DNA of 64,000 bases from positions 62,001-126,000 of the forward strand of contig NZ_VANI01000005.1 of NCBI RefSeq assembly GCF_005771435.1, in the 5' to 3' direction. The notes below the pieces were generated by a model that saw nothing but the letters and a program-made list of their open reading frames with translations, was not told the DNA's origin and did no database searches. How positions within the stretch are numbered: the first letter of the stretch is position 1; each line of letters starts with the position of its first letter. This DNA is from Microbulbifer harenosus (GTDB lineage Bacteria > Pseudomonadota > Gammaproteobacteria > Pseudomonadales > Cellvibrionaceae). The position numbers and the translations under genes are program-made. Below, piece after piece: positions 4,571 through 20,128 of this stretch.

Positions 4571-4840
4571 ATTGTTATATCCCTTGCTATACCCTTTTTT
4601 GTCCCGACAACGATCTGCCGTTATTAATTGGTGAAACGCTGGGAGGTTAGCAGCGCAAATGTGACTGAAATGTCGCTGAGATGTGAAAACTGTATCAGAG
4701 CCCGTTATCCACTGCCGGTTCAACTCAAGGGAGATACCGGCACCAGGCTATTTGGCACGTAAAGTGAGTTGTTTTTCCCTTAAGTCATAAATGGGTGTAT
4801 TACACTTTTTATTCCGTGGGTATATAAGGAGTTACCTTGA

Positions 4841-5623
4841 ATGAAACGGATGTTGAAATTTCCACCTATCTTGGCGCCTTTGGCTCTGGCATTTTCCAGC
4901 TCGGTCTCTGCGGGCACCCTCGGCTTGAGCGGACCACAGGACTTTATTGTCCGCGTTGGCGGCTATTATATTGATCCACGGGAGGACAAGGTTAGTTTTG
5001 TCGACGATACCTTCCAGTTTTTCGATGCGTTTCGCTCTACCGTTGATCCGGGTTCCGAGTGGGGTTGGTCCATAAACCTTGAGTGGAAACCGATAGAGCA
5101 TTGGGGCATCGAGCTTGGCTATATGGACGGCGACAAGCATACCAGCAGTCACGCTGACGTCTTTTTCTCGCCGGGCTTCGAAAATGTCGAATTTCGTGAT
5201 GTGGTCAGTTTTGACGCCGATATCAGTACAATGAGCCTGAAATTCTACCCCCTGGATGATACCTGTATGGTTCAGCCCTATATAGGTGGTGGAATCAGCT
5301 ATACCGACTTCGGTGACAGCAGCGTTAGCCGTGCACTTCGCGACGACCTGGCTGAATTTGGCCTGCGCGGCAATTTCGATATGGGGTACTCCTGGGGCTA
5401 CACCTGGCAAGTGGGTATGGATTTCAATTTCGGACGCGAAAGCGCCTGGCTGGTCAATGTCGCCGCGGTGTATGCACGATCCGTAACCGATATGCGGATA
5501 CAGCTGTTGGATGACGTTCCGCCGCCCCCGGATGTAGAGCCGTTTTTCGAGTCCTATTCCGGCGACTACATCTATGATCCGTGGATGTTCAATCTGTCAG
5601 TAGGGTACAAATTCTCTTTCTGA
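4841..5623 (+). CDS. OmpW-family outer membrane protein
   Basis: This encodes a small beta-barrel porin-like protein of 260 residues. A signal peptide of about 24 residues ends SVSAG. The mature start GPQDFIVRVGGYYIDPRED is the OmpW hallmark (a VRxGxxYIxP-like opening), and the chain ends VGYKFSF with a terminal phenylalanine. It is longer than typical OmpW (about 210), with additional acidic and aromatic loops. A strong Shine-Dalgarno (AAGGAG) precedes the ATG, and a TATATAA stretch just upstream may be its -10. A hairpin terminator follows directly, so it is probably a single-gene unit. OmpW proteins pass small hydrophobic molecules; the substrate here is unknown. Confidence 0.85.
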   Translation: MKRMLKFPPILAPLALAFSSSVSAGTLGLSGPQDFIVRVGGYYIDPREDKVSFVDDTFQFFDAFRSTVDPGSEWGWSINLEWKPIEHWGIELGYMDGDKHTSSHADVFFSPGFENVEFRDVVSFDADISTMSLKFYPLDDTCMVQPYIGGGISYTDFGDSSVSRALRDDLAEFGLRGNFDMGYSWGYTWQVGMDFNFGRESAWLVNVAAVYARSVTDMRIQLLDDVPPPPDVEPFFESYSGDYIYDPWMFNLSVGYKFSF

Positions 5624-5649
5624 CTTTCTGAATTCGGCAGATTTTACTG

Positions 5650-5670
5650 GGCGCTTCGGCGCCTTTTTTT
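5650..5670 (+). terminator. Rho-independent terminator after the OmpW-like gene
   Basis: A five-base-pair GC stem (GGCGC/GCGCC) with a TTCG tetraloop is followed by seven T residues, 26 bases after the stop of the OmpW-like gene. Confidence 0.85.
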
Positions 5671-5679
5671 ATGGAAGGA

Positions 5680-6681
5680 TCAATCGATCTGACGGCGCGC
5701 TTCATTGGACCGGTGGGTACGCGGCTCACGCACCCGTATTACCTGATCGCGCTTATCCGTTCTCTTTTTGGGCTTCTTTTCCTGTGTCTTTTTCTTTGGT
5801 TGCTCGTTCTCTGGTTGCTCTCTCTTTGGCTCCTTGCCCTCCTGGGGCGGAGCTGGCTTCGCGGCGTTATTGTGCCGATCATTTGGCGCATTGCGCTGGG
5901 GTTGGGGCTGGTGCTGGCCGCGTATGTTTTGTTGCTTGGGCCGGTCGCGCACCGCGCGGCGATCCATTGCCGGATGCTCTGATGCAGGAACAACTCGCGG
6001 GTCGCGAATGCCGGTCGGCTTGTCCGCAAGTTTGACTGCCCGCACGTCCCGGCCTGGATTCGGACCTGGATTCCGGTGTTCATTACGGCGATCCTCGCTC
6101 CGGTTATCCACCTGAGACCCCCGCCGCTTTGGCTCGGCTATGCCAGCAAACCCCTGTTCGCCGCCTCGGCCACGGTCCTGGCCCTGCACACGACGATCCT
6201 GGCCCTCCTCACGACGATCCTGTCGTTGCCCATTGCCTTCATGCCGGTCCCGCCGGTTGTAACCGTCGTCATGATCGTGCCGGCGCGGCGGTCTGTCGTG
6301 GTGTCCTCCGGCATAGTGATGGCCATGGCGGCGCAAGCGCGTATGCCAGCGATCATTGAAGTTTGCCGAGACATAAAAATTCGGGGCCGGATACCAGGGG
6401 CCATGCCAGTGACTGGCACTGATCCAATGGTCCTGATACCAACGATAGTAATGCCCCTGCCGAAAGAAAACGTCGCTGCGGTCGTAGAATACGTAAACGC
6501 CGAGAGTATCGTCGTAGTAGCGATAGCCGGGATCGGTGATCACTGAATAGGAGTAAACCGGGGGAGCATGGCGGACATAGGTGCTCCCGACGTACACTGG
6601 CGCAGATGGGTAGGTGACACAGCCACCGAGCGTCAAAGTGATGGTGAGAGCGGCGAGTAATCGGTATGGGAACTGGCGCAT
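5680..6681 (-). CDS. YXW-type lipoprotein with long basic low-complexity tail
   Basis: A 333-residue predicted lipoprotein. The signal peptide ends at a lipobox, LGGC, near residue 21, so the protein should be anchored in the outer membrane or envelope. Residues about 25-105 are rich in Tyr, Trp and His (YYRWYQDHWISASHWHGPW), like the small YXW/WXXGXW repeat lipoproteins of proteobacteria. The rest is highly charged and of low complexity, with repeated GQDRR/GQDRG units and a Lys/Glu/Pro-rich end (EGKEPKREQPENEQPKKK), probably disordered. The gene faces the OmpW-like gene tail to tail. Function is unknown; the His- and Arg-rich tail could bind metal, nucleic acid or cell-wall polymers. Confidence 0.75.
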   Translation of the reverse strand: MRQFPYRLLAALTITLTLGGCVTYPSAPVYVGSTYVRHAPPVYSYSVITDPGYRYYDDTLGVYVFYDRSDVFFRQGHYYRWYQDHWISASHWHGPWYPAPNFYVSANFNDRWHTRLRRHGHHYAGGHHDRPPRRHDHDDGYNRRDRHEGNGQRQDRREEGQDRRVQGQDRGRGGEQGFAGIAEPKRRGSQVDNRSEDRRNEHRNPGPNPGRDVRAVKLADKPTGIRDPRVVPASEHPAMDRRAVRDRPKQQNIRGQHQPQPQRNAPNDRHNNAAKPAPPQEGKEPKREQPENEQPKKKTQEKKPKKRTDKRDQVIRVREPRTHRSNEARRQID

Positions 6682-6805
6682 GGTGCGGATTCCTTGGATT
6701 CACACCTGCTTTTTAACCCGGCGCAACTGAATCGCCCCTGAATTAACTCGCAAAAGAACAGAGAACAACCAATACCGAGAAATGAACACAACCCCATAAA
6801 TTCAG

Positions 6806-7486
6806 CTAACTTTCAGAAAGTCCGATTTTTACACGCTCATCTTCATTAGTAATAAACGGCAACATTCGGCTCGCTGCCAGCCATGCAACACCAAATGCAA
6901 ACAAACCTGTCGCCTCGACATAGTAAGTCAGCCGCTGAGTAATACCGCTAAAATCTACCCAGCCCAGAATATCCAGCAGCTGTACGGCCATAGCGCCAAC
7001 CATAGCGACTGCGCAGATTCTATAAATTAGACCCCTGACCTTCGCCTCTTTGGAATCTTTTCCTTTAGCTCTCAGGTAAAACAGCCAACAAAAAATGGCG
7101 AGGATAATGAACATTGAAATTGCCGAGGCCGTATGAACAATCCCGGTCATCGTGGGTTCTCTCGCTGCCTCCTCAACATTCCGACCTGTAAAGCAATCGC
7201 ATGGGAAAAATGCCACTGCTGCTACAGCCACTGCTGCGACTTTACTCAAGACAGCCTGAAACAAAGAGTAGCCATTATACGACCAGAGAAAAGCCGATAT
7301 TACGCATAGAGAGCCAACGAATACATTTCGGGCATTATCCGTTAAATGATATGACAGACTAATCGAGCTAATACTGACCCCAGGTGTCAGCAAGTCCGTA
7401 AAACTCGCGAGTGACAAAGCGATAAATCCCACGATCAACTTAGCCGTGTGGTGATCAATTTCTGTGTCTAGTGGCTTCCTATCCAT
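6806..7486 (-). CDS. DUF998-like multi-pass membrane protein
   Basis: A hydrophobic protein of about 226 residues with six likely membrane segments, resembling the DUF998 family (a short first segment, a Cys-containing loop FPCDCF, then paired helices). The function of the family is not settled. I prefer the ATG at 7486 (MDRK), because AGG lies eight bases upstream; an in-frame ATG at 7504 would add six residues. The upstream start lies inside the remains of a RAYT transposase, so the gene border has been rearranged. It marks the left part of the AT-rich accessory region. Confidence 0.7.
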   Translation of the reverse strand: MDRKPLDTEIDHHTAKLIVGFIALSLASFTDLLTPGVSISSISLSYHLTDNARNVFVGSLCVISAFLWSYNGYSLFQAVLSKVAAVAVAAVAFFPCDCFTGRNVEEAAREPTMTGIVHTASAISMFIILAIFCWLFYLRAKGKDSKEAKVRGLIYRICAVAMVGAMAVQLLDILGWVDFSGITQRLTYYVEATGLFAFGVAWLAASRMLPFITNEDERVKIGLSES

Positions 7487-7497
7487 GGACGCAACCT

Positions 7498-7706
7498 CAT
7501 ACATTTGGAGTTACCAGCAAGCAGATGTGGTTGGTCATCAACACCCAGGTATGCACCTAAATATCTAACTCATTTACATGCTGTATTAGCCAACCGGCGT
7601 AGGCGATCATCTCCTGCTCTAAACAGAAGCAAACCTGCCGATTGTTGCCCTGCTGCATGACATGCTGCGGATTCCCTGCAGGTCCAAGACGCGGCAATCT
7701 AGCCAT
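7498..7706 (-). pseudogene. Truncated REP-associated tyrosine transposase (RAYT, Y1/HUH type)
   Basis: The minus strand from the ATG at 7706 reads MARLPRLGPAGNPQHVMQQG, continues with NNRQVCF, then meets an in-frame TAG, and after it reads VHTWVLMTNHICLLVTP. This is the conserved N-terminal part of RAYT/IS200-like transposases (usual consensus GNNRQ followed by HxxVLMTNHVHLL). Two lesions show it is dead: the internal stop, and replacement of the second histidine of the catalytic HUH pair by cysteine (NHICLL). All of the protein after the HUH region, including the catalytic tyrosine, is missing; the DUF998-like gene begins there instead. RAYTs move REP palindromes, and this window carries several families of such palindromes. 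Confidence 0.8.
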
Positions 7707-7865
7707 CGAACTTTCCCTTCCCTCTTTTTATGACCATAGACTAAAGGAAGGAAAACTCAGTAGGTGCTAATGAGTGTCATACTTTTGATCCAACGCCATT
7801 TGTTAATTTATTTATACACTCATTAGACTTCGGCGTAGTGCACTGCGGCCCATCGAGCCTGCTAT
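7707..7865. other. AT-rich gap without a recognised gene
   Basis: Between the transposase remnant and the stop of the next gene I see no convincing coding frame. The stretch is AT-rich, including a run close to TTGTTAATTTATTTATAC, and may hold the end of the preceding transcription unit. Confidence 0.5.
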
Positions 7866-8858
7866 TCAGTGCTTGTAGCAATAGTCGATGATTTCCTTGA
7901 ACCCCACCTCTTCACGCGCCAGTCTCACCTCCAATTCGTTAAGTTTTGCGACACTGGGCAATTCTTTAGCTCCAGATATTTCAATCGAAAATTCGTCCTT
8001 GTAACTTTTTCCAACCCTCGACAGCTCACCGCTGAGCTGGTTTAAAATTTCGTCTCTTAGTAAAAGTTGGTTTCGTCGAAAACGAATAAGTCGGTGACAA
8101 TCAAAGAAGTCTGACCGTCTCGTCGAGTCATATTTTCTACCGTTCCAGCCTGTTTTTCGCGTGGCGCGATACAGCGCGCGCTCTTGCGTATCCCTCCACA
8201 CACGAAAGTCAAAATGATTGGTAGGATTCGGGTTCTCGTGTGTGGCCTGAGAGTGGAAATTGGCTTCCCTAAACTCGTGTTTATCAAGGATAGCCAATGT
8301 CCTGTTCTGTGTGGATAACATGCGTTTAATTGATCTGGGCATCTCAAAGCTCATCACCTTGGTTGAATCCAAGATACGCAATTCTCTCGAAAGTTCTTCG
8401 TCATCTCGATCCCAATGCCTTTTCAGTCGTTTAGGCACCCACTGAACATGAGTACCAAAGAGGCGAAAAACGCCGTATGGGCTGAATGAAGTCATGTGAA
8501 TTTTTTCACGCAAATCATCATCTTGAAGGAAAAAAAACGCACATCCGGACCAATTTAGCGACTGAGCTATTTCCTCCACCAGCTCGCGTATTGTTTCGTC
8601 AACTGAATGTGGTGAATATCTCGTCTTAATGTTGCCAAGTAAATTTTGCGAGAACTCTTCATCATTCGACACAATATCAAAAATGTTTCCGCTTCGACGG
8701 TTCGTCAAACTGAACAAGCTGCCAAAATCCTCATCAAACATCCGACGATTAAAATCAGGCTTCTCCCGCTCCATCTTGACTAAAAACCGATCAATCCATG
8801 CAAGACGGAAATCATGAAAGTGGTATCTGCGCAAAGGTTCGGCTCTAAAAATTTTCAT
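7866..8858 (-). CDS. Unrecognised soluble protein, second gene of a two-gene membrane system
   Basis: A 330-residue protein I do not recognise. The ATG at 8858 (MKIFRAEPLRR) lies one base after the stop of the larger upstream gene, so the two are translationally coupled. It has no signal peptide or membrane segment. The composition is charged and rich in Arg, Asp and Phe. Features include a hydrophobic patch SGCAFFFLQDDD near residue 105, a basic middle (RATRKTGWNGRKYDSTRRSD) and a helical C-terminus (VAKLNELEVRLAREE). Base use is AT-rich compared with the core genes. Its tight coupling suggests it works with the membrane protein encoded before it, perhaps as an effector or regulator on the cytoplasmic side; this is inference. 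Confidence 0.7.
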   Translation of the reverse strand: MKIFRAEPLRRYHFHDFRLAWIDRFLVKMEREKPDFNRRMFDEDFGSLFSLTNRRSGNIFDIVSNDEEFSQNLLGNIKTRYSPHSVDETIRELVEEIAQSLNWSGCAFFFLQDDDLREKIHMTSFSPYGVFRLFGTHVQWVPKRLKRHWDRDDEELSRELRILDSTKVMSFEMPRSIKRMLSTQNRTLAILDKHEFREANFHSQATHENPNPTNHFDFRVWRDTQERALYRATRKTGWNGRKYDSTRRSDFFDCHRLIRFRRNQLLLRDEILNQLSGELSRVGKSYKDEFSIEISGAKELPSVAKLNELEVRLAREEVGFKEIIDYCYKH

Positions 8859-8859
8859 C

Positions 8860-11334
8860 CTATACCTCTTCACGTTCCTCACGTAACCGGCGTGCAAGAC
8901 TACTAATGTGATAGTCGACCTCAAAGTCAATTGTATCGAGTTGCGGTACAACAAGATACGCAAAGAACAGATGAGACGCATCGGCACGAGATCTCAGGAA
9001 CTCTCTCACTATTTTATTTGGGTGCGGCACCCCATGCGACATTCCCATCCCCCCCCAAAAACCATCATTTCTAGCGCGATATTCAAACGACATTTTCCAG
9101 TTAATCCGGATTAGCCCACGGGGTGACGCACTCATACTAAAGCTACGCGTATTCGCGAGGAGCATCATTCTCTTGAAGTACTTTTGTTTGTCAGTTGCGT
9201 GTGTAATCCAAGCATTGAACTTAACTATCGCTCCCGCTGCCAACCTTGTATTGCCAAAGTATGCTCCATAAAGAATTGCAAAACCCAAGACTGAAGCCAA
9301 GTCATTGATCACCGTTGAAATGAGATGAAGTCGGTACTCATTGTTTACATCCAGTGATGGATCTGAAAATTTCGAATCCGCAGCCAAAAACGCAAGAGAC
9401 ATGAACATAGGAAGGACCTTGTCCAATCTAATTTCATCATTTTTTTCAAGAGCGGTTATACATGCTTCAGCCAGCTCGAAGTATATTTGTCCAAAGTGAT
9501 CAGGTAGATCATCATTGTGCTTTGGCTCAAAGATATGTTCGACGAAGGCTCCACTACCGAGCCTGGTAATTGCATCTTCTCGAGCAGAAGTAAGCTGTCG
9601 GGTCATCTCGAAAATGTTTATCTCAGGCAACTTGTATTGCTCTTCGGCGTAGTGCTCATATTTACGGTACCGCTCAACGAGCTGGGCAAGTTCGTCGAAC
9701 CAGCGCGGCAACTTCCAATGGCTATGCAAGCTTGCAAGGACAACCTGCGTTGCAGACTCAGGCATTTTCAATTTTGATAGTGATTCAACAAAATCTGGAA
9801 GCAAATTTTGAAAAAAATCACATATCGCAGGCAGGACTTTTACATAATGCTGCAACAGCCTTTGTACCGCCAACTGTTGGATGTATCTTGGCTTAGATAG
9901 ACGCCGCCCCTCAATATCTTGCTCAAATTCGATGCGCTCAACGATGAACGCGAGTTCTACTTGAAAAAGGGCAGGCAGATGACGTAGGGACTTCTCAGAC
10001 CACTCGTCCTTTTCAAAGAACTTCTCCAGTTCTTTTTCAAAGGTAAACCATCTACGTATTGTCTCTAAGCAGAGGGTGCTCCCTAGCGCAGCCCATGTGT
10101 CTGCTATGCCGACCAGTACTTTCGCTGATTTATCGTCCTCTACGGGATCCAATGAGGCGAAAGCATACTCTATGATTTCTTTGAATCTCTTAAGCTCTTG
10201 CATGCCAATCTCGAACTGAAACCGTTCTGCATAAGCTGAAATACGAGTTGAGAAGCGACCGATAAGTTTTAATGCGAGTTCGAAGTCTCCGACTTGAAAT
10301 GCAAGTTCAATATGGCCAGCTAATCTGTCTACGAGGTCTTTTTCGAACCATTGGTGATCAAGCTTTTCTTCAATCAGCGGTTGTTGGCTACTCGTTTGCA
10401 GCGCCATAGAAGTGGCTGTATCCCCCGCAAAAAACCACTGCTTATGCTTGTTCCTTCTTGGAAACCAATAGCTTTCTTGGTCGATTGTGTGTTTTCGTTG
10501 AAGATAGTGTAAAAGCAAAGCCGTGTAGTCGTCGGTTAATGCAGGAAGGTTATCTTCCAAACCGTCCTTACCTGCTTTTACACGGTCATCAATGTATAAA
10601 AGTTGTTCAAGAGCCAGTCGCGCGAGCTTCGAATGATGGTTAGCTAATGAGTTTGAATTTTTACGGTTTCTCGCACCCTCAATGTGGCGTGCGATACTGG
10701 GAAGTATTTCGCTGCGGACTAGAATATTTAGGTCAAAGAAATTAAAGAGTCTCTGACCCAAGGGAAACAAAGCCAAAGCGCTCAACAGAGTCAAAATCGT
10801 ACCGCCGACATAAACAAAAAGTCCGGGTTCTAATCCGAACAATGGCAAGGCCGTTGCAGTCAAACAAAACATCGCTGAAAGCACCAAAACTCGAGAGTAC
10901 ACACTACCCACCTGTTCGTTGGTGAGCATTTGGATGATATCTCGGCGAAGTCTGGTATAGCCGGCGCTCAGTATGATGCCAATTGTAGCGAAGTAGATCG
11001 AGAATATTGCAGTGAGCAGTTGAGCGTACAGTCTGAGCTGCTCGATATTGAATTTTTTGTCTTCTGTACTAAGCGGTGAAAGTAAAGACAGGCTCTTATT
11101 GACGTAACTTTCAATGAAAATTAGCGCCACTAAAACCAAAATAACCCAAAATAAACTTTCCACACCGATCCATGCGAATGAACCTAGAATGCGGGCATTT
11201 GCTTTTGCTTTCGAGACTGAGGCGCTTCTCTTGTAAGCGCTGTACTCAAGGGCAAATCCAATTTTTCCTAACCATGTTCGGAACTTCCAAAACCAGGGCT
11301 GGGAACTCACCGAGATTTTCAACCAATCAAACAA
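8860..11334 (-). CDS. Unrecognised large membrane protein with four N-terminal membrane helices
   Basis: An 824-residue protein I do not recognise. Hydrophobic segments fall near residues 55-76, 104-125, 147-167 and 171-192, giving four membrane helices in the first quarter. The remaining 630 residues are hydrophilic, helix-rich and probably cytoplasmic, without obvious nucleotide-binding or catalytic motifs. The start appears to be TTG at 11334, with GGAG six bases upstream. The gene is AT-rich relative to the core and is followed, after one base, by the 330-residue partner gene. The layout (membrane anchor, large cytosolic sensor-like part, small soluble partner, next to a Septu-like pair) is compatible with an uncharacterised defence or stress system, but no motif proves it. 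Confidence 0.7.
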   Translation of the reverse strand: MFDWLKISVSSQPWFWKFRTWLGKIGFALEYSAYKRSASVSKAKANARILGSFAWIGVESLFWVILVLVALIFIESYVNKSLSLLSPLSTEDKKFNIEQLRLYAQLLTAIFSIYFATIGIILSAGYTRLRRDIIQMLTNEQVGSVYSRVLVLSAMFCLTATALPLFGLEPGLFVYVGGTILTLLSALALFPLGQRLFNFFDLNILVRSEILPSIARHIEGARNRKNSNSLANHHSKLARLALEQLLYIDDRVKAGKDGLEDNLPALTDDYTALLLHYLQRKHTIDQESYWFPRRNKHKQWFFAGDTATSMALQTSSQQPLIEEKLDHQWFEKDLVDRLAGHIELAFQVGDFELALKLIGRFSTRISAYAERFQFEIGMQELKRFKEIIEYAFASLDPVEDDKSAKVLVGIADTWAALGSTLCLETIRRWFTFEKELEKFFEKDEWSEKSLRHLPALFQVELAFIVERIEFEQDIEGRRLSKPRYIQQLAVQRLLQHYVKVLPAICDFFQNLLPDFVESLSKLKMPESATQVVLASLHSHWKLPRWFDELAQLVERYRKYEHYAEEQYKLPEINIFEMTRQLTSAREDAITRLGSGAFVEHIFEPKHNDDLPDHFGQIYFELAEACITALEKNDEIRLDKVLPMFMSLAFLAADSKFSDPSLDVNNEYRLHLISTVINDLASVLGFAILYGAYFGNTRLAAGAIVKFNAWITHATDKQKYFKRMMLLANTRSFSMSASPRGLIRINWKMSFEYRARNDGFWGGMGMSHGVPHPNKIVREFLRSRADASHLFFAYLVVPQLDTIDFEVDYHISSLARRLREEREEV

Positions 11335-11418
11335 AAGGCTCTCCCTCTCATTGCCTATTTCAATTACGAGATTGCACTATCTCTATAGCCCTGTGAGTAG
11401 TTAAGGATTCTTCTAGAA

Positions 11419-11489
11419 TGGGATCAGATCAGCAATATAGCATTACACGCCACAAATCAAATTAACACCACAAAATTGATCTGACCTCA
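11419..11489. repeat. Inverted repeat resembling a RAYT-mobilised palindrome
   Basis: TGGGATCAGATCA at 11419-11431 is matched in inverse by TGATCTGACCTCA at 11477-11489 with two mismatches, around a spacer of about 45 bases. Paired GGGGTCAGATCA-type ends are common in small non-coding elements linked to Y1 transposases, and a dead RAYT lies 3.7 kb away. The 245-base gap between the two island operons (11335-11579) holds nothing else I recognise. Confidence 0.5.
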
Positions 11490-11579
11490 AAAAATCAAAA
11501 AAATTGACCTACCCCCATTTATTTAACCGATTTTATTTAAAATAAATCCCCTAAACTTGCTTACCCATACTTAAAACTA

Positions 11580-12245
11580 TTAGCTCTCTACTAGCAATGA
11601 ATTACTAACCTGAATTTGAGCCAGCATAAGCATTTGCATTTTCAGCCGATCCCTTTCCGCCTCATCCTCCTCATTTAGCATCGCGTTAGCGGTTTCTATC
11701 AAGCCAGGGACCTGAGCCACTGATTCATTCCAGCCACCAGCGTTATATGAAAATCTCAGCAACCCGCAAGCTTCTATAGTCTTTCTTCCTTTATCACTTT
11801 TTGGCGCATATATGATTCCCAGGTGAACAGCTATATGATCCTCATAGACATCGAAATGTGGGTGGACAATTGTAAAGTGATGACTTTCAGTTGGATACCT
11901 CAACCTCCCCTTATTAACCAGCACATGCTTATTACTTTTTTCAGTATTGCAATCCTTGCAAGCTACACATAAATTTTTTGGTGTAAACATGAATTGTGGT
12001 GAATTTTTCCTTGCCACAATATGTTCAACGTCCCAAACACCGGAGTGCTGAACGGGGTACCGTATATTACAGTAGACACAGGTTAAGCTCTGCTCATTTT
12101 TATAATGCGATTTTATTTCACGCTTAACTTCAGCTATATCTTCATGATACCAATATTCGTGACTTTGACTTTCCCTGTCACTTTCATATTGATCAACGAG
12201 CAGTCGACTTTCAGATGAATATTCTATGGGCGATTCTATTTTCAA
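11580..12245 (-). CDS. ptuB: HNH endonuclease, PtuB-like (Septu-type defence)
   Basis: A 221-residue HNH nuclease, the likely effector of a Septu-like anti-phage system. The zinc-type HNH core is visible: CVYC at residues 56-59, the DVEH histidine at 75, NLC at 91-93, CKDC at 96-99 and a closing NKH near 107. The start is TTG at 12245, overlapping the stop of the ATPase gene as TTGA, with GGAG eight bases upstream inside the ATPase gene; no earlier in-frame ATG exists. In Septu, PtuA and PtuB form a complex that degrades nucleic acid on phage infection. The assignment rests on the HNH motif, the ATPase partner, and gene order. Other ATPase-HNH pairs exist, so the subtype is open. Confidence 0.78.
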   Translation of the reverse strand: MKIESPIEYSSESRLLVDQYESDRESQSHEYWYHEDIAEVKREIKSHYKNEQSLTCVYCNIRYPVQHSGVWDVEHIVARKNSPQFMFTPKNLCVACKDCNTEKSNKHVLVNKGRLRYPTESHHFTIVHPHFDVYEDHIAVHLGIIYAPKSDKGRKTIEACGLLRFSYNAGGWNESVAQVPGLIETANAMLNEEDEAERDRLKMQMLMLAQIQVSNSLLVES

Positions 12246-13714
12246 CCTTCATACTCCAAGGCAAGAATCAAAGCATCGATCAAAGTTGATACCGGATCAT
12301 TTTCTTTTAGTAGAGGCCGCATTTCGATTATAGGCTTAGCTTCCTGCCTAATTTCACTTTTCGCTACGCTCCCCTTGCTAATTTTTGCGATTAAGTTTAG
12401 ACACTCTCTGGTTACATACTCATTTGATGACCCAGGAGCACAAAATATTTTTGCCAATTGAAAATCAGCTGACTTTTTATAGTACTTATCAGAGGGTAAA
12501 AGCTCTCCGGTATTCATTTTTAGAATCGCACAATTCGCACCGTGAACCCTCGATATTATTTGTGGCGAGTGCGTTGCAATTATAAAGTGGCAACCTCTAT
12601 ATGAATCAAACGTCCTCAGCAGAAGGTCTATATACTTTTCCTGCCACTCAGGGTGCAAGCTGATTTCCGGCTCATCAATACAAATTAATGACCCATCTTC
12701 GATTTCACTAGCAATGCCAATTATTGTTGCGATGATACATTGCTCACCAGAGCTTAGATCACGAACACTTACAGGCTCAATTGCTGGGTATTCAGGATAC
12801 AAATGTATGTCTGCAAGCCTCATCAACCCCAAATTTCTAAGAAGCTCTGTATGTTCAAATAGCTCAATTACACTTCCAGAGAGACAGCCTCCATCAAACC
12901 CAATATCAAAACCAATCCTTCTTGCCGTATGAAGATCCTCTTCCAATTCTCCATACGCTTCGACAACCTTACGCAATAAGACATCATCTCCAGACAGAAC
13001 ATCTAAAGCCCTTCGAACTCTAGGATGCCTAGATTGGGAGTCAGAAGGATTAAGCCCCTGATCACTGACAAGTGACAAGAAACGACTGGGAGATATATCA
13101 AATTGGTACTCTGCAGTTAATTTTGGCAGATAACCTAAGAAATTAAACACCCCCTTTAATTTCTCTAGTTTCAGCTGCCCCTCTCTTGAAGAGCGAAACA
13201 ATGAACCTACTAGTCTATCCAGTAATGAGTTTGATGATTGTGGACCAAATTCACTTCTTACACCCAAATAAGTGTATCGACTGTATTCTGTGTCTGGTCT
13301 TTTGAAGCTGTTTCGCCCTAGCGGAAACTTATCGTAGGGTGTCGTTGAAGTCGCTACGATTTTATTTGGCAAGGTATCACTAGGGCTAACCCCCAAAATA
13401 AATTCGCCAGAATACTGACACTTACCGTGATTTACGGTAAGACCAGCGACAATCCCACCCTTTTCATAGACCAGCGAAAATTTATCTAAAACAGCATCCG
13501 CTCGCCGACCCAGTCCGGATCTATTCTTTTGGACACGACCACCTTCATCTAGAGATTCAAATGAACCAATGATTGCGCTTAACAGCCTACTTTTTCCGAT
13601 ACTATTTTTGCCAACAACAATTGTATAGTGGTTATCCCACTCGGAATCATTTTTAGTAAGCGTAAACGGCAAGACACGACCGTCAAAAAATGCCTTCGTA
13701 ATTTTGAAAGACAA
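12242..13714 (-). CDS. ptuA: AAA/ABC-type ATPase, PtuA-like (Septu-type defence)
   Basis: A 490-residue SMC/ABC-like ATPase. Walker A is GKNSIGKS near residues 35-42, the signature-like motif is LSSGEQ, Walker B is LICIDEPEISLHP, and the switch histidine sits in IATHSPQII. This is the OLD/RecF-like ATPase architecture used in several defence systems. An HNH nuclease gene overlaps its end by four bases, the order seen in Septu. The start is TTG at 13714 with GGAG six bases upstream. Base use is clearly more AT-rich than in the prp operon next door, a sign of transfer. It probably senses infection and licenses the nuclease; the trigger is unknown. Confidence 0.82.
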   Translation of the reverse strand: MSFKITKAFFDGRVLPFTLTKNDSEWDNHYTIVVGKNSIGKSRLLSAIIGSFESLDEGGRVQKNRSGLGRRADAVLDKFSLVYEKGGIVAGLTVNHGKCQYSGEFILGVSPSDTLPNKIVATSTTPYDKFPLGRNSFKRPDTEYSRYTYLGVRSEFGPQSSNSLLDRLVGSLFRSSREGQLKLEKLKGVFNFLGYLPKLTAEYQFDISPSRFLSLVSDQGLNPSDSQSRHPRVRRALDVLSGDDVLLRKVVEAYGELEEDLHTARRIGFDIGFDGGCLSGSVIELFEHTELLRNLGLMRLADIHLYPEYPAIEPVSVRDLSSGEQCIIATIIGIASEIEDGSLICIDEPEISLHPEWQEKYIDLLLRTFDSYRGCHFIIATHSPQIISRVHGANCAILKMNTGELLPSDKYYKKSADFQLAKIFCAPGSSNEYVTRECLNLIAKISKGSVAKSEIRQEAKPIIEMRPLLKENDPVSTLIDALILALEYEG

Positions 13715-14082
13715 CCCCGACTCCTTTTATGTTATTAATTTGGCAGCATTGTATCGCGCATCTATAAAGGCGCAGCACCGCGATAGCTATTTAGATAAGC
13801 GCCACATTATATTTCCGCTCAATCAACTCCGCGATTCGATTGTCTTCAACCCCGGGAAACACGCCACCCTTCACCCGCTTTCAGCGAAATTTATTGATTT
13901 TCAAAATAACCTATACAGTGCAATTATTTTTATATCTTGGATATCGCCACTGTAGATGGTATTTAATTTTCCTTCTAAGTCAATGGCTTATCTTTCTCAA
14001 AAGTATACACTCCAAGTATCAAGCTATTTGATCTTTAGAGATCGAGTAAAGACTAAATACCAAACAAAAGATCGTACAAATA
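13715..14082. other. AT-rich upstream region of the Septu-like operon
   Basis: This stretch of 368 bases has no gene I can support. It must hold the promoter of the ATPase/nuclease operon near 13720-13800. On the minus strand, 13811-13897 reads a short open frame (KRVKGGVFPGVEDNRIAELI and on to a stop) that could be the tail of a decayed gene, but I cannot name it. Confidence 0.4.
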
Positions 14083-14114
14083 AAAAAGCGAGCCTCATTC
14101 GAGGCTCGCTTTTT
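14083..14114 (-). terminator. Bidirectional terminator after prpF
   Basis: A perfect nine-base-pair stem (GCGAGCCTC/GAGGCTCGC) with a four-base loop is flanked by five or more A residues on one side and five T residues on the other. It can stop transcription from the prp operon on the minus strand. It lies 62 bases beyond the prpF stop and marks the right border of the AT-rich island. Confidence 0.88.
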
Positions 14115-14176
14115 CAACTTCCGAAGTTAGTTTAAACGACTCTCATCGCCATTAGCAGCTCCTGCTGCAAGCAAGA

Positions 14177-15355
14177 CTAAAAGCAATCACCTGGCACCCG
14201 CACCCACCCTTCCATCAGAATCCGCGCACTGCGGCTCATGATGGCCTTGGTGGCAGTCCACTCACCGTGGGCAATTTCCGCTTCCGCGCCGACCCGCAAG
14301 GTGCCTGACGGATGGCCGAAGTTCACCACACTGCGCTCCCCGCCCCCCGCGGCCAGGTTGACCAGGGTGCCGGGAATGGCGGCGGCGGTGCCGATGGCGA
14401 CGGCGGCGGTGCCCATCATGGCGTGGTGCAGTTTGCCCATGGAGAGCGCGCGCACCAGCAGGTCGATTTCACCGGCGTCCACATGCTTGCCACTGGAGGC
14501 GCCATAACCTTTCGGTGCCGCGACGAACGCGACCTTGGGGGTATGCTGGCGAGCGGCTGCCTCTTCCACCGTTGCGATCAGGCCCATGGCCTTTGCGCCA
14601 TATGCACGGATGGTTTCGAACATGGCGAGCGCCTTGTCGTCACCGTTGATGGCTTCCTGCAGTTCGGTGCCGGTGTAACCGATATCCGCGGCGTTGACGA
14701 AGATGGTCGGGATGCCGGCGTTGATCATGGTGGCCTTTAACGTACCGACGCCCGGCACTTCCAGGTCGTCCACCAGGTTGCCGGTGGGGAACATGGCCCC
14801 TTCGCCATCGGCCGGGTCCATGAATTCGATCTGGACTTCGGCCGCCGGGAAGGTGACGCCGTCCAGTTCGAAATCACCGGTCTCCTGCACTTCCCCATTG
14901 GTGATGGGTACGTGGGCGATGATGGTTTTCTTGATGTTGGCCTGCCAGATGCGCACGGTGCAGATACCGTTCTGTGGAACACGCTCTGCATCCACAAAAC
15001 CGCTGTTGATGGCGAAGGCACCGACGGCGGCGGTGAGGTTGCCGCAGTTGCCGGACCAGTCCACGAAGGGTTTGTCGATGGAGACCTGGCCGAAGAGGTA
15101 ATCCACGTCGTGGTTTGGCTGCTCGCTTTTGGACAGGATGACGGTTTTGCTGGTGCTGGAGGTGGCTCCGCCCATGCCGTCGGTGTGTTTGCCGTAGGGG
15201 TCGGGGCTGCCGATTACGCGGAGCAGGAGGTTGTCTCTGGCCTGGCCTGGGGTTTGGGCGGATTCGGGCAGGTCTTGCAGGCGGAAGAAGACGCCTTTGC
15301 TGGTGCCGCCGCGCATGTAGGTGGCGGGGATTTTGATTTGGGGGGCGGAGGTCAT
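14177..15355 (-). CDS. prpF: 2-methylaconitate cis-trans isomerase PrpF
   Basis: This 392-residue enzyme isomerises the 2-methylaconitate made by AcnD so that the methylcitrate cycle can go on. The N-terminus IPATYMRGGTSKGVFF is the PrpF family opening, followed by GMGGATSSTSK, the DWSGNCGN active-site block, and the C-terminal SMGKLHHAMMGT block. The ATG at 15355 gives the normal family length; the frame stays open upstream through the repeat element but that is not coding. It is the last gene of the GntR-prpB-prpC-acnD-prpF unit, separated from acnD by 155 bases filled with palindromic repeats. Confidence 0.95.
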   Translation of the reverse strand: MTSAPQIKIPATYMRGGTSKGVFFRLQDLPESAQTPGQARDNLLLRVIGSPDPYGKHTDGMGGATSSTSKTVILSKSEQPNHDVDYLFGQVSIDKPFVDWSGNCGNLTAAVGAFAINSGFVDAERVPQNGICTVRIWQANIKKTIIAHVPITNGEVQETGDFELDGVTFPAAEVQIEFMDPADGEGAMFPTGNLVDDLEVPGVGTLKATMINAGIPTIFVNAADIGYTGTELQEAINGDDKALAMFETIRAYGAKAMGLIATVEEAAARQHTPKVAFVAAPKGYGASSGKHVDAGEIDLLVRALSMGKLHHAMMGTAAVAIGTAAAIPGTLVNLAAGGGERSVVNFGHPSGTLRVGAEAEIAHGEWTATKAIMSRSARILMEGWVRVPGDCF

Positions 15356-15385: not shown

Positions 15386-15498
15386 TGTAGGAGCCTGCTT
15401 GCAGGCGAACAGTTTGGTGCTTCGTGGCTGTTCGCTTGCAAGCAAGCTCCTACGGGTGCTTTGTGGGTGGTTGTTCGCCTGCAGGCAGGCTCCTACAA
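15386..15498. repeat. Repeat family A (TGTAGGAG palindromes) between acnD and prpF
   Basis: A palindromic element starts TGTAGGAGCCTGCTTGCAGG and meets inverse arms at 15430-15452 and 15472-15496 ending GCAGGCTCCTACA. There is one left arm and two right arms. It fills most of the acnD-prpF gap and would fold into a strong hairpin in the prp mRNA. Confidence 0.85.
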
Positions 15499-15510
15499 GG
15501 GTGCTTCGGA

Positions 15511-18108
15511 TCAGGCGTTGGCTTCGGCTTCCAGGAAGTCTTTGGCGAAGCGTTGGAGGACGCCGCCGGCTTCGTAGATGGAGACTTCTTCCTGGGTGTC
15601 CAGGCGGCATTTGACCGGGACTTCTAGGGTTTCGCCGTCTTTGCGGTGAATCAGTAGGGTCAGGGTTGTGCCTGGGGTGCGGTCGCCGGTCACGTCGTAG
15701 GTTTCGGTGCCGTCGATGCCGAGGGTCGTGCGGGTGGTGCCCGGCAGGAACTCCAGCGGCAGCACGCCCATGCCGATCAGGTTGGTGCGGTGAATGCGCT
15801 CGAAGCCTTCCGCCACGATGGCTTCCACGCCGGCGAGGCGCACGCCTTTGGCGGCCCAGTCGCGGGAGGAACCCTGGCCGTAGTCGGCGCCGGCGATAAT
15901 GATCAGCGGCTGCTTGCGGTCCATGTAGGTTTCGATGGCTTCCCACATGCGGGTGACTTTACCTTCCGGCTCAACGCGGGCCAGCGAGCCCTGCTTCACT
16001 TCACCGTTCTCGTCGCGCACCATTTCGTTCAACAGTTTCGGGTTGGCGAAGGTGGCGCGCTGGGCGGTGAGGTGATCGCCGCGGTGGGTGGCGTAGGAGT
16101 TGAAGTCCTCTTCCGGCAGGCCCATTTTCGCCAGGTATTCACCGGCGGCACTGCTGGCCAGGATCGCGTTGGACGGCGACAGGTGGTCGGTGGTGATGTT
16201 GTCACCCAGCACTGCCAGCGGGCGCATGCCTTTCAGCGCGCGCTCACCGGCCAGCGCGCCTTCCCAGTACGGCGGGCGGCGGATGTAGGTGCTCTGCGGG
16301 CGCCAGTTGTACAGCGGGTCGCCCTTCTCTGCCGCGCTCTTTTCCAGATCGAACATCGGGATGTAGACCTCGCGGAACTGCTCGGGCTTCACGCTCTGTT
16401 TGACGATCGCGTCGATCTCTTCGTCGCTCGGCCAGATATCTTTCAGGGTCACCGGGTTGCCGTCTTTGTCGTAACCCAGGGTGTCTTTTTCGATATCGAA
16501 GCGGATGGTGCCGGCGATGGCGTACGCAACCACAAGCGGCGGCGAAGCCAGGAACGCCTGCTTGGCGTAGGGGTGGATGCGGCCGTCGAAGTTGCGGTTG
16601 CCGGAGAGTACCGCGGTGGCGTACAGGTCGCGGTCGATCACTTCTTTCTGGATGACCGGGTCCAGTGCGCCGCTCATGCCGTTACAGGTGGTGCAGGCAA
16701 ACGCGACCACGTCGAAGCCCAGTTGCTGCAGTTCCGGCAGCAGATCGGCTTCTTCCAGGTACATTTTTACGGTTTTGGAACCGGGAGCCAGGGAGGTTTT
16801 CACCCAGGGCTTGCGGCTGAGGCCGAGCTTGTTGGCGTTGCGCGCGATCAGGCCCGCGGCAATCATGTTGCGCGGGTTGCTGGTGTTGGTGCAGCTGGTG
16901 ATCGCGGCAATGATCACTGCGCCGTCGGGCATCAGGCCCTCTTCTTCCTTCCACTCTTTGGCAATGCCGCGGTTCGCCAGTTCGGACACCGGCAGCAGTG
17001 CGTGCGGGTTGGACGGGCCGGCCAGGTTGCGGGTTACGGAAGACAGGTCGAACTTGAGCACGCGCTCGTATTCGGCGTCTTTCAGGGAATCCGCCCACAG
17101 GCCGGTTTCTTTCGCAAATTTTTCTACCAGGGCTACCTGCTCGTCGTCGCGGCCGGTGAGCTTCAGGTAGTCGATGGTCTGCTCGTCGATGGCGAACATG
17201 CCGGCGGTGGCGCCGTATTCGGGCGTCATGTTGGCGATGGTGGCGCGGTCGCCCAGGCTAAGGCTGGTCGCACCTTCGCCGTAGAATTCGAGATACGCAC
17301 CCACCACGCGCTCGCGGCGCAGGAACTCAGTCAATGCCAGCACCATGTCGGTGCCGGTGATGCCGGGCTGCAGTTTGCCGGTCAGCTCGACGCCGACGAT
17401 GTCGGGCAGGCGCATGTAGGAGGCGCGGCCGAGCATGACGCTTTCGGCTTCAAGGCCGCCGACGCCCACAGAGATTACGCCGAGCGCATCCACCATCGGG
17501 GTGTGGCTGTCGGTGCCGACGCAGGTATCCGGGAAGGCAACGCCTTCTTTCACCTGCACCACAGGAGACATTTTCTCCAGGTTGATCTGGTGCATGATGC
17601 CGTTACCGGGCGGGATCACGTCGACGTTTTCAAACGCGGTTTTGGTCCAGTTGATGAAGTGGAAGCGGTCTTCGTTGCGGCGCTCTTCCACTGCGCGGTT
17701 TTTTTCAAACGCGTTTTTTTCAAAGCCGGGGTGTTCGACGGCCAGGGAGTGGTCGACGATCAACTGGGTGGGGACCACCGGGTTTACTTTGGCGGGGTCA
17801 CCGCCCTGCTCTGCGATGGCGTCGCGCAGGCCGGCGAGATCCACCAGTGCGGTCTGGCCGAGGATATCGTGGCAGACGACGCGCGCGGGGAACCAGGGGA
17901 AGTCGAGGTCGCGCTTGCGTTCGATGATTTGTTTGAGGGCTGCGGTGAGGTTTTGTGGTTCGCAGCGGCGCACCAGATTTTCCGCGAGGATGCGCGAGGT
18001 GTATGGGAGTTTGGCGTAGGCGCCTGGCTGGATTTTTTCGACGGCTTCGCGGGTGTCGAAAAAATCGAGGTCGGTGCCAGGGAGATTTTTGCGGTATTCG
18101 GTATTCAT
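15511..18108 (-). CDS. acnD: Fe/S-dependent 2-methylisocitrate dehydratase AcnD
   Basis: This 865-residue aconitase-family enzyme dehydrates 2-methylcitrate to 2-methylaconitate, which PrpF then isomerises. The opening (MNTEYRKNLPGTDLDFFD, then YTSRILAENLVRRC) is characteristic of AcnD rather than AcnA. Aconitase blocks seen include GTDSHT, the cluster ligands in ITSCTNTSNP and CTTCNG, and GSSRDWAAKG near the C-terminus. The ATG at 18108 matches the family start; an in-frame start four codons earlier is possible. It is third in the prp operon, after prpC and a 510-base gap holding a four-unit repeat array. Confidence 0.96.
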   Translation of the reverse strand: MNTEYRKNLPGTDLDFFDTREAVEKIQPGAYAKLPYTSRILAENLVRRCEPQNLTAALKQIIERKRDLDFPWFPARVVCHDILGQTALVDLAGLRDAIAEQGGDPAKVNPVVPTQLIVDHSLAVEHPGFEKNAFEKNRAVEERRNEDRFHFINWTKTAFENVDVIPPGNGIMHQINLEKMSPVVQVKEGVAFPDTCVGTDSHTPMVDALGVISVGVGGLEAESVMLGRASYMRLPDIVGVELTGKLQPGITGTDMVLALTEFLRRERVVGAYLEFYGEGATSLSLGDRATIANMTPEYGATAGMFAIDEQTIDYLKLTGRDDEQVALVEKFAKETGLWADSLKDAEYERVLKFDLSSVTRNLAGPSNPHALLPVSELANRGIAKEWKEEEGLMPDGAVIIAAITSCTNTSNPRNMIAAGLIARNANKLGLSRKPWVKTSLAPGSKTVKMYLEEADLLPELQQLGFDVVAFACTTCNGMSGALDPVIQKEVIDRDLYATAVLSGNRNFDGRIHPYAKQAFLASPPLVVAYAIAGTIRFDIEKDTLGYDKDGNPVTLKDIWPSDEEIDAIVKQSVKPEQFREVYIPMFDLEKSAAEKGDPLYNWRPQSTYIRRPPYWEGALAGERALKGMRPLAVLGDNITTDHLSPSNAILASSAAGEYLAKMGLPEEDFNSYATHRGDHLTAQRATFANPKLLNEMVRDENGEVKQGSLARVEPEGKVTRMWEAIETYMDRKQPLIIIAGADYGQGSSRDWAAKGVRLAGVEAIVAEGFERIHRTNLIGMGVLPLEFLPGTTRTTLGIDGTETYDVTGDRTPGTTLTLLIHRKDGETLEVPVKCRLDTQEEVSIYEAGGVLQRFAKDFLEAEANA

Positions 18109-18158
18109 CTGTTTCACCAAAGTGAATCTTGGCTTTGTGTCTTGGCTGGGATTGGCCT

Positions 18159-18612
18159 TGTAGGAGCCTGCTTGCAGGCGAACAGGTCGCGCTTCGTTGC
18201 TGTTCGCCTGCAGGCAGGCTCCTACAGGGGGTGGTCCCGAATTTTGTGCGGAGCTTGCGCTCGGCGTTCCCGGGGGTGTTTCCGCTGTAGGAGCCTGCCT
18301 TGCAGGCGAACAGGTCGGTGCTTCGTTGCTGTTCGCCTGCAGGCAGGCTCCTACAGGGGGTGGTCCCGAATTTTGTGCGGAGCTTGCGCTCGGCGTTCCC
18401 GGGGGTGTTTCCGCTGTAGGAGCCTGCTTGCAGGCGAACAGGTCGGTGCTTCGTTGCTGTTCGCCTGCAGGCAGGCTCCTACAGGGGGTGGTCCCGAATT
18501 TTGTGCGGAGCTTGCGCTCGGCGTTCCCGGGGGTGTTTCCGCTGTAGGAGCCTGCCTTGCAGGCGAACAGGTCGGTGCTTCGCTGCTGTTCGCCTGCAGG
18601 CAGGCTCCTACA
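18159..18612. repeat. Four-unit tandem array of family A palindromes between prpC and acnD
   Basis: Four units begin at 18159, 18286, 18415 and 18543, with a period of 127-129 bases. Each holds an inverted repeat of about 70 bases (TGTAGGAGCCTGC...GCAGGCTCCTACA), and the first three carry a near-identical spacer of about 57 bases starting GGGGGTGGTCCCGAATTTTG. Units 1 and 3 read GCCTGCTTGC while units 2 and 4 read GCCTGCCTTGC, so the array probably arose by doubling a two-unit block. The prpC stop lies just beyond the last arm. The whole gap (18109-18618) holds nothing else. Confidence 0.93.
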
Positions 18613-18618
18613 GGGGGA

Positions 18619-19743
18619 TTAGCGCTCGGCGATTGGGGTTACTTTGCGCAGTTCCGGGCCAACGTATTCCGCGCTTGGGCGGATGATGCGGTTGTCGGCG
18701 CGCTGTTCAAATACGTGGGCGGCCCAGCCGGTTACGCGGGACATTACAAAGATCGGGGTGAACAGCTTGGTGGGAATGCCCATGAAGTGGTACGCCGACG
18801 CGTGGAAGAAGTCGGCGTTGCAGAACAGCTTCTTCTCGCGCCACATGACTTCTTCGCAGCGTACGGATACCGGGTACAGCACGTCGTCGCCAACGTCGGC
18901 GGCCAGTTTTTCGGACCACTGCTTGATGATGGCGTTGCGCGGGTCGGATTCGGTGTATACCGCGTGGCCGAAGCCCATGATCTTTTCTTTGCGCTCGAGC
19001 ATGCCCAGCAGTTCTTTTTCCGCTTCGTCGGCGGAGGAGAAACGCTCGATCAGCTCCATCGCCGCTTCGTTGGCGCCGCCGTGCAGCGGGCCGCGCAGGG
19101 AGCCGATGGCGCCGGTGATGCAGCTGAACAGGTCAGACAGGGTCGACGCACACACGCGCGCGGTGAAGGTGGAGGCGTTGAACTCGTGCTCTGCGTACAG
19201 GATCAGGGAGACGTTCATCACCTGCTCGTGCAGCGCGTTCGGTTTCTCGTCGCGCAGCATGTGCAGGAAGTGGCCGCCGATGGAGTCGTCGTCGGTTTCG
19301 GTTTCGATACGCACGCCGTCGTGGCTGAAGCGGTACCAGTAACAGATGATGGACGGGAATGCGGCCAGCAGACGGTTGGCTTTTTCCTGCTGCTGCGCGA
19401 AGGATTCTTCGCCCTCCAGGTTGCCCAGCATGGAGCAGCCGGTGCGCATGACGTCCATTGGGTGTGCGTCGGCGGGGATGCGCTCGAGTACTTCTTTCAG
19501 TGCCTGCGGCAGGCCGCGCAGGGTTTTCAGCACGCCTTTGTAATCGGCCAACTGCGCTTTGTTGGGCAGTTCGCCGTAGAAAATCAGATAGGCGACTTCT
19601 TCGAACTCGCAGTTTTCGGCGAGGTCTTTTACGTCGTAACCGCGGTAGGTCAGGCCGGAGCCGGATACGCCTACGGTGGAAAGTGCGGTTTTACCGGCTA
19701 CCTGGCCACGCAGGCCTGCTCCGCCAACTTTTTTCTCTGCCAT
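18619..19743 (-). CDS. prpC: 2-methylcitrate synthase PrpC
   Basis: This 374-residue citrate-synthase-family enzyme condenses propionyl-CoA with oxaloacetate to 2-methylcitrate. Diagnostic blocks include GLTYRGYDVKDLAE, HPMDVMRTGCSMLG, the catalytic GPLHGGANEAA region and GFGHAVY. The ATG at 19743 (MAEKKVGG) gives the normal family length; the open frame before it only translates a repeat element. It follows prpB across a 385-base gap filled with repeats, and precedes acnD. Its last codon lies six bases from the end of the tandem array. Confidence 0.96.
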   Translation of the reverse strand: MAEKKVGGAGLRGQVAGKTALSTVGVSGSGLTYRGYDVKDLAENCEFEEVAYLIFYGELPNKAQLADYKGVLKTLRGLPQALKEVLERIPADAHPMDVMRTGCSMLGNLEGEESFAQQQEKANRLLAAFPSIICYWYRFSHDGVRIETETDDDSIGGHFLHMLRDEKPNALHEQVMNVSLILYAEHEFNASTFTARVCASTLSDLFSCITGAIGSLRGPLHGGANEAAMELIERFSSADEAEKELLGMLERKEKIMGFGHAVYTESDPRNAIIKQWSEKLAADVGDDVLYPVSVRCEEVMWREKKLFCNADFFHASAYHFMGIPTKLFTPIFVMSRVTGWAAHVFEQRADNRIIRPSAEYVGPELRKVTPIAER

Positions 19744-19776
19744 CGTTAATTCCCCTATCAGTTTAAGTTTTACTTC

Positions 19777-19857
19777 GTCATGCCGGACTTGATCCGGCAT
19801 CCAGTACAGCGGCTTCGATCTACCTCCGTTCTGGATCCCGGCATGCGCCGGGATGAC
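19777..19857. repeat. Repeat family B (GTCATGCCGG ends), copy 1
   Basis: An element of about 81 bases runs from GTCATGCCGGACTTGATCC to GCCGGGATGAC. Its reverse complement is almost the same as 22804-22885. The ends form nested palindromes and the centre reads CGGCTTCGATCTACCTCCG in this orientation. It sits just upstream of prpC, within the operon. Confidence 0.9.
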
Positions 19858-19878
19858 GAGGTTGGGCGTTGTGGTTTT

Positions 19879-19946
19879 GTAGGAGCCTGCTTGCAGGCGA
19901 ATGGTTGCGGAGTGCAGACCGGTTCGCCTGCAAGCAGGCTCCTACA
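19879..19946. repeat. Repeat family A, short form, upstream of prpC
   Basis: A 68-base palindrome: TGTAGGAGCCTGCTTGCAGG on the left and the inverse arm ending CAGGCTCCTACA on the right, around a spacer of about 18 bases. It is the short form of family A. Confidence 0.9.
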
Positions 19947-19960
19947 GGGTGGAGTGGTTA

Positions 19961-20116
19961 TGTAGGAGCCTGCCTTGCAGGCGAAAATTTAGCTCCTGTG
20001 CCAAGCAGCCGTCCCTGGAGCAGTTTCCGGCCCGGCCATCCATGGCCGGTCGCTGATCTGAGCAGCGAGCAATGCTCGCAAAACGCTCAGTTCAGCCATG
20101 CAGGCAGGCTCCTACA
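19961..20116. repeat. Repeat family A, long form (about 156 bp), copy 1
   Basis: The same TGTAGGAGCCTGC ends enclose an inner part with further palindromes (GGCCATCCATGGCC and AGCGAGCAATGCTCGC). The element is the reverse complement of the copy at 24926-25080 with scattered differences. It fills the gap between prpB and prpC together with the two elements before it. Confidence 0.9.
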
Positions 20117-20128
20117 GGGTGCATCTCG

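Follow-up and report, generated by a model that had tools for sequence, protein, structure and literature searches.

Here we analyse two adjacent genes, A and B, in a 64,000-nucleotide stretch of the Microbulbifer harenosus genome (contig NZ_VANI01000005.1), referred to below as the window. Gene A encodes a membrane protein, and gene B a soluble protein with a predicted phage-portal fold. We propose that A-B is a two-gene module, so far undescribed and spread by horizontal transfer, whose most likely role is defence against phages. The two genes are:

8860..11334, minus strand: gene A, 824-residue membrane protein with four N-terminal transmembrane helices and an all-helical solenoid (open reading frame, hydropathy, AlphaFold model, family of 29 members)
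7866..8858, minus strand: gene B, 330-residue soluble protein with a predicted phage-portal fold (open reading frame, structure model, Foldseek and VIA portal matches, family of 28 members)

A and B form a two-gene unit

In the window, the called start of gene A is TTG, as it is in 19 of the 28 A genes examined, and B begins with an ATG one base past A's stop. Open reading frame coordinates and hydropathy agree with a first-pass annotation, made from the window's letters, of an 824-residue protein with four N-terminal membrane helices followed after one base by a 330-residue soluble protein. Ratios of nonsynonymous to synonymous substitution (dN/dS) against five relatives each are 0.08-0.17 for A and 0.09-0.23 for B; these low values indicate purifying selection on both, so A and B look like real genes.

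Of 29 loci examined, 28 have B directly after A; at L004, the exception, the contig stops at A's stop codon. A further locus, L035, carries both genes. With the start codon closest to A's stop taken as that of B, 26 of the 28 loci show an overlap of 1 to 20 bases between the genes, and the other two have gaps of 1 and 2 bases. Pairwise identities of A and of B are tightly correlated (r = 0.976 over 378 pairs; 0.949 within subfamilies). A search of the class genomes with B alone returned the same 2 of 369 genomes that carry A, and second-subfamily queries found A and B on the same 3 of 72,556 plasmids; with the window's own queries, A finds three plasmids and B two of those three. Such single-gene searches would miss a much more diverged lone A or B. 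Together the results show that A and B constitute a two-gene unit. Their separate occurrence in relatives, which had been named in advance as refuting a joint system, was not seen in the loci examined.

Scanning GTDB contigs with a five-member profile gave at least 24 loci, a lower bound because the scan was pattern-limited, and tblastn of plasmids located A on two Paenibacillus plasmids and one of Burkholderia glumae. The A family is rare: two genomes carry it among 369 of the class, two among 398 of the phylum and two among 194 of the order, with the window's own genome counted each time. It divides into two subfamilies that share ~20% identity. Within the first, pairwise A identity is at least 46% and reaches 85% to the window's A; hosts are Marinobacter, Vreelandella, Nitrosomonas, Aminobacter, Stappia, Salipiger, Maricaulis and others, and one copy, 78% identical to the window's, comes from a Desulfobacterales metagenome-assembled genome (MAG). 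The second subfamily (29-80% identity) occurs in Paraburkholderia, Dyella, Microbulbifer, Burkholderia, Paenibacillus and some MAGs. This patchy spread at high sequence identity points to horizontal transfer, with MAG contamination possible in single cases.

Predicted structures of A and B

Hydropathy places four strong hydrophobic segments at the N-terminus of A (about 56-74, 106-124, 149-167 and 172-190) and leaves 634 residues downstream of the fourth. A weaker fifth peak, at 671-689, falls within the predicted solenoid. In the AlphaFold model (predicted local distance difference test, pLDDT, 80.4; predicted template-modelling score, pTM, 0.70) an all-helical solenoid of ~630 residues follows the transmembrane helices. 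These predictions support A being an inner-membrane protein with four transmembrane helices and a large alpha-solenoid, and the 634 C-terminal residues would be cytoplasmic. DUF2254 (PF10011) was considered for A, as the order of its transmembrane segments looks loosely similar by eye; hhalign gave a probability of at most 1.1%, and DUF2254 is not among the 14 Pfam families listed for the 29 A members at E <= 1.

B has no membrane segments by hydropathy. Its model, built on 26 sequences, has a pLDDT of 83 and a pTM of 0.83 and resembles phage portals in both Foldseek and VIA, with the fold of a portal monomer; Foldseek template-modelling scores (TM-scores) to portals are 0.29-0.46 and root-mean-square deviations are high. 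A portal fold for B is thus predicted with good support. The most conserved loop of B comprises G237, W238 and R241, and its position matches that of the portal tunnel loop by helix order only. Tailed-phage portals (for example those of HFTV1, 80alpha, lambda and RcGTA), whose fold B is predicted to share, have no sequence similarity to B that we could find. B also differs from them in having a membrane solenoid protein as its constant partner and, judged from helix order only, an apparently much shortened clip-like segment. B was probably taken from a tailed phage long ago. The first-pass annotation had imagined a large membrane sensor working with a soluble partner; the predicted fold shifts the likely mechanism towards a membrane protein plus a portal mimic.

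Family searches gave no significant match for A or B in PADLOC, NCBIfam, Pfam or PHROGs. Neither matches any PADLOC model at E <= 1; in Pfam, the window's A has no match at E <= 1 and its B only an insignificant one to GAF_2. Pfam scans of the relatives returned scattered weak matches, the best at E 0.018 for 29 A proteins and 0.005 for 28 B proteins, and no portal family is among the 12 families listed for B at E <= 1. Sequence searches of the PDB reached E 0.22 at best. The earlier statement that no family could be named for either protein is therefore true at the level of sequence, and a match of either gene to a known housekeeping family, which would have spoken against a novel system, was not seen in these databases.

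Genomic neighbourhoods of the pair

A first set for PADLOC, selected by eye, consisted of 16 proteins encoded near the pair at 11 loci. Convincing matches were a type I restriction protein and methyltransferase (L011), PDC-M60A (L012, 2e-84), type IIG (L016), Shango SngA and SngC (L018), NERD-UvrD (L026), an 80-residue HsdM fragment (L030, 1e-14), a type III methyltransferase (L031) and Fic (L032, 1.6e-25). Those of L010 and L019 were weak, and the chosen neighbours of L004 had none. A less selective set was drawn from 28 loci by taking, on each side, no more than four called genes of 110 residues or longer, which gave 164 proteins. The 130 of these that were scanned, picked at random, match 131 PADLOC families at E <= 1e-20, whereas 125 of 250 control proteins, from 20 arbitrary stretches of 14 genomes of the same order, match 9; these figures count models rather than proteins, and the control hosts were not matched to those of the pair. 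Among the 25 neighbour families shown are SngB, SngC, type I, IIG and III restriction or methylation, PD-Lambda-4 and PDC-M60C. The pair thus recurs as a unit among defence genes, in islands and hotspots, across unrelated bacteria, the very observation that had been named as support for a defence module.

Mobile elements also adjoin the pair. By eye, L004 lies next to an integrase and L035 next to phage regulatory genes, both at the ends of viral contigs. A tRNA gene lies no more than about 300 bases from L017, and likewise from L025. Phage genes stand near L004 and L035, and no phage head genes (terminase, capsid) were noticed by eye beside the pair, no profile search having been aimed at them. 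In Marinobacter sp. ATCH36, genes that look Tn7-like by eye are directly upstream of the pair (L021:4016-9868).

Some of these loci hold further genes worth recording. In L018:1-4827, immediately upstream of the pair, lie SngC and an SngA gene truncated where the contig ends; they flank a gene that is probably SngB, and one of the 130 scanned neighbours matches SngB at 4e-180. At L012:14119-19181, the PDC-M60A candidate defence gene and two response-regulator-like genes stand beside the pair, near conjugation genes (by eye). Two genes by the prophage integrase at L004:5672-7095 appear RnlA-RnlB-like by eye and have no PADLOC match.

The island that holds the pair in the window contains:

7503..7706, minus strand: transposase remnant with an in-frame stop, at the left island edge (tblastn; 230-residue copy in L073, 73.5% identity over 68 residues)
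7810..14082, no strand: variable cargo segment of a genus hotspot, here Septu and A-B, with other cargo in relatives (blastn of the island)
11580..12245, minus strand: PtuB, Septu HNH nuclease, a neighbour and not part of the pair (PADLOC PtuB, E 3.2e-72)
12242..13714, minus strand: PtuA, Septu ATPase, a neighbour and not part of the pair (PADLOC PtuA, E 4.7e-123)

The Septu-like neighbours, dead transposase and AT-rich base use noted at first pass were all borne out. Guanine-plus-cytosine (GC) content is 44.6% for A, 44.1% for B, 40.2% for PtuB and 41.3% for PtuA, as against 58.9% outside the island. The island occupies a defence hotspot of the genus (window 7504-14177) beside prpF, whose cargo varies in 18 relatives (L062-L079). 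The prpF end is present in 47 of 48 genomes of the genus, and 44 of the 48 show at least some match to the left flank (4832-7504), strong in 30 and only short and weak in 14. A DUF998 gene marks the left side in 13 of the 18 relatives and is missing from the interval in the other five. When positions 7505-14176 were compared with these relatives by blastn, only 7505-7809, parts of about 14054-14171 and, in L078, 13925-13990 matched; the A-B pair has no nucleotide match in the hotspot of the 18. The interval has a GC content of 41.9-53.3% in the relatives, and some of its genes are common to a few of them, for example L069 with L071 and with L063.

PADLOC was run on ten hotspot proteins, picked by eye from 6 of the 18 relatives. 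Five of the six gave matches: ThsA, ThsB and NERD-UvrD (L064), SIR2 and HerA (L069), HerA (L075), GajA and GajB (L071) and LmuB (L078). The pair and Septu thus fill a slot that often holds defence systems, since Thoeris, SIR2-HerA, HerA, Gabija or Lamassu proteins occupy it in these relatives. The sixth, L066, gave no PADLOC match; a 701-residue protein in its hotspot (L066:3232-5337) looks by eye like an HSP90-type ATPase and is possibly an unnamed defence gene.

The transposase remnant resembles a transposase associated with repetitive extragenic palindromes (REP), and we take it to be of the RAYT/Y1 type. Elsewhere in the window, at 15386-20120, repeats resembling REP or bacterial interspersed mosaic elements (BIME) occur as 5 copies of 71 nt and 8 of 35 nt, among genes that look by eye like those of the methylcitrate pathway.

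Possible functions and related systems

Genomic context makes a defence role for A-B rather probable. As to mechanism, B would oligomerise and dock on the solenoid of A at the inner membrane; we regard ring formation and docking as an evenly balanced proposition. The membrane-held portal mimic would be engaged by a phage component that meets portals, such as incoming DNA, connector, terminase or scaffold, and engagement would either sequester that component or alter the membrane domain of A so that the infected cell stops. That A-B is an immune machine built on a domesticated portal, in which a B ring on membrane-embedded A acts as a decoy for phage DNA or components of head assembly, or as a gate to them, is a tentative suggestion, and a trigger of the mimic or decoy kind that works through the membrane is rather unlikely. 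Were the domesticated portal real, bacteria would be turning the virus's DNA gateway against the virus at the inner membrane.

Several observations weigh against A-B as an antiphage module with a portal mimic. A convincing defence neighbour was found in only 9 of 30 known loci, the window with its Septu included (11 loci and the window having been sent to PADLOC). Neither A nor B has a recognised catalytic motif. The single-gene searches that argue for constant pairing were short in reach, the window's B having missed the B of L035 in viral contigs. Portal likeness also has no echo in sequence: hhalign of B against a haloarchaeal portal alignment gave a probability of 0.1%, the PHROG portal model matches one of 28 B members (E 0.52), and tblastn of the L029 B against 50,697 phages had one match in all, a non-portal gene with an E value of 2. 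These last results, together with the small alignment behind the B model and its modest Foldseek scores, are what one would expect if the likeness were a model artefact or a convergent fold devoid of functional meaning, leaving A-B an unnamed pair, which we judge very unlikely.

Other roles can be weighed against the same evidence. The pair could be a membrane DNA conduit of mobile elements, serving uptake, export or establishment of DNA, with B as a portal-like channel ring on A. Portals are DNA channels, the conserved B loop sits at the tunnel-loop place (by helix order), and the pair is found on plasmids and at prophage-like contig edges, as well as next to what look by eye like a transposon and a conjugation cluster. 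However, no linked ATPase or nuclease is conserved with the pair among the neighbours listed, and the recurrent recognisable neighbours are varied defence systems, so we consider a conduit unlikely. A stress, toxin-antitoxin or other passenger module riding in defence islands and hotspots would explain why several loci, such as L014, L023 and L025, lie among genes that look ordinary by eye, and hotspots do hold cargo that is not evidently defence; yet far more defence models are matched around the pair than in stretches taken arbitrarily from relatives, and we consider a passenger quite unlikely. B might instead block head assembly by mixing into or capping the phage portal ring, A being a mere membrane anchor near the site where heads start. 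The portal fold of B would suit this role, and in T4 the portal is assembled at the inner membrane with the help of gp40 and YidC (PMC4493910). It would leave the large conserved solenoid of A unexplained, and mixed rings with many phages are improbable because B has no detectable sequence likeness to the portals tested; we rate this role as distinctly improbable.

As an antiphage system, A-B may be a new kind of bacterial immunity. No such membrane and portal-like pair seems to have been described before. PADLOC (2023) and NCBIfam (June 2026) contain no match to it. We found nothing like it in the open literature, and the words "portal" and "capsid" are both absent from the DefensePredictor paper's main text; it may have been described recently in subscription papers, supplements or preprints. 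We know of no immune protein built from a portal fold, and none turned up in the open literature search. The novelty of A-B would lie in its distance from known systems, its function being read from context and its fold predicted. If A-B defends, it would be the first case, to our knowledge, of a portal turned into a defence part; its mechanism at the membrane could be tested directly, and two unnamed protein families, present in two or more phyla, would be added to those known. Even if it does not, a portal-fold protein in constant partnership with a membrane solenoid protein is a surprising combination that structural work can test.

Known systems resemble A-B in part. Kiwa (KwaA-KwaB) consists of two genes, encoding a four-transmembrane protein and a soluble protein of about 300 residues; KwaA is small, and the domain of KwaB is DUF4868. 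A-B shares this layout and differs in its larger membrane protein and in the predicted portal fold of B; no Pfam or PADLOC match links A or B to Kiwa. Nor do A and B belong to Septu by PADLOC, PtuA and PtuB being adjoining genes. SNIPE is a membrane-bound nuclease that acts at genome injection (PMC13190303). Its membrane tether is shared with A, as would be its large cytoplasmic part; unlike A-B, in which a nuclease is recognised in neither protein, it is described there as a single protein with a nuclease domain. Portals are already part of immune biology as triggers: the phage portal YonE activates SpbK, and some Avs proteins sense portals (PMC12847820). For SpbK and Avs4 the portal sensed is the phage's own, whereas here the bacterium itself encodes the protein with the predicted portal fold.
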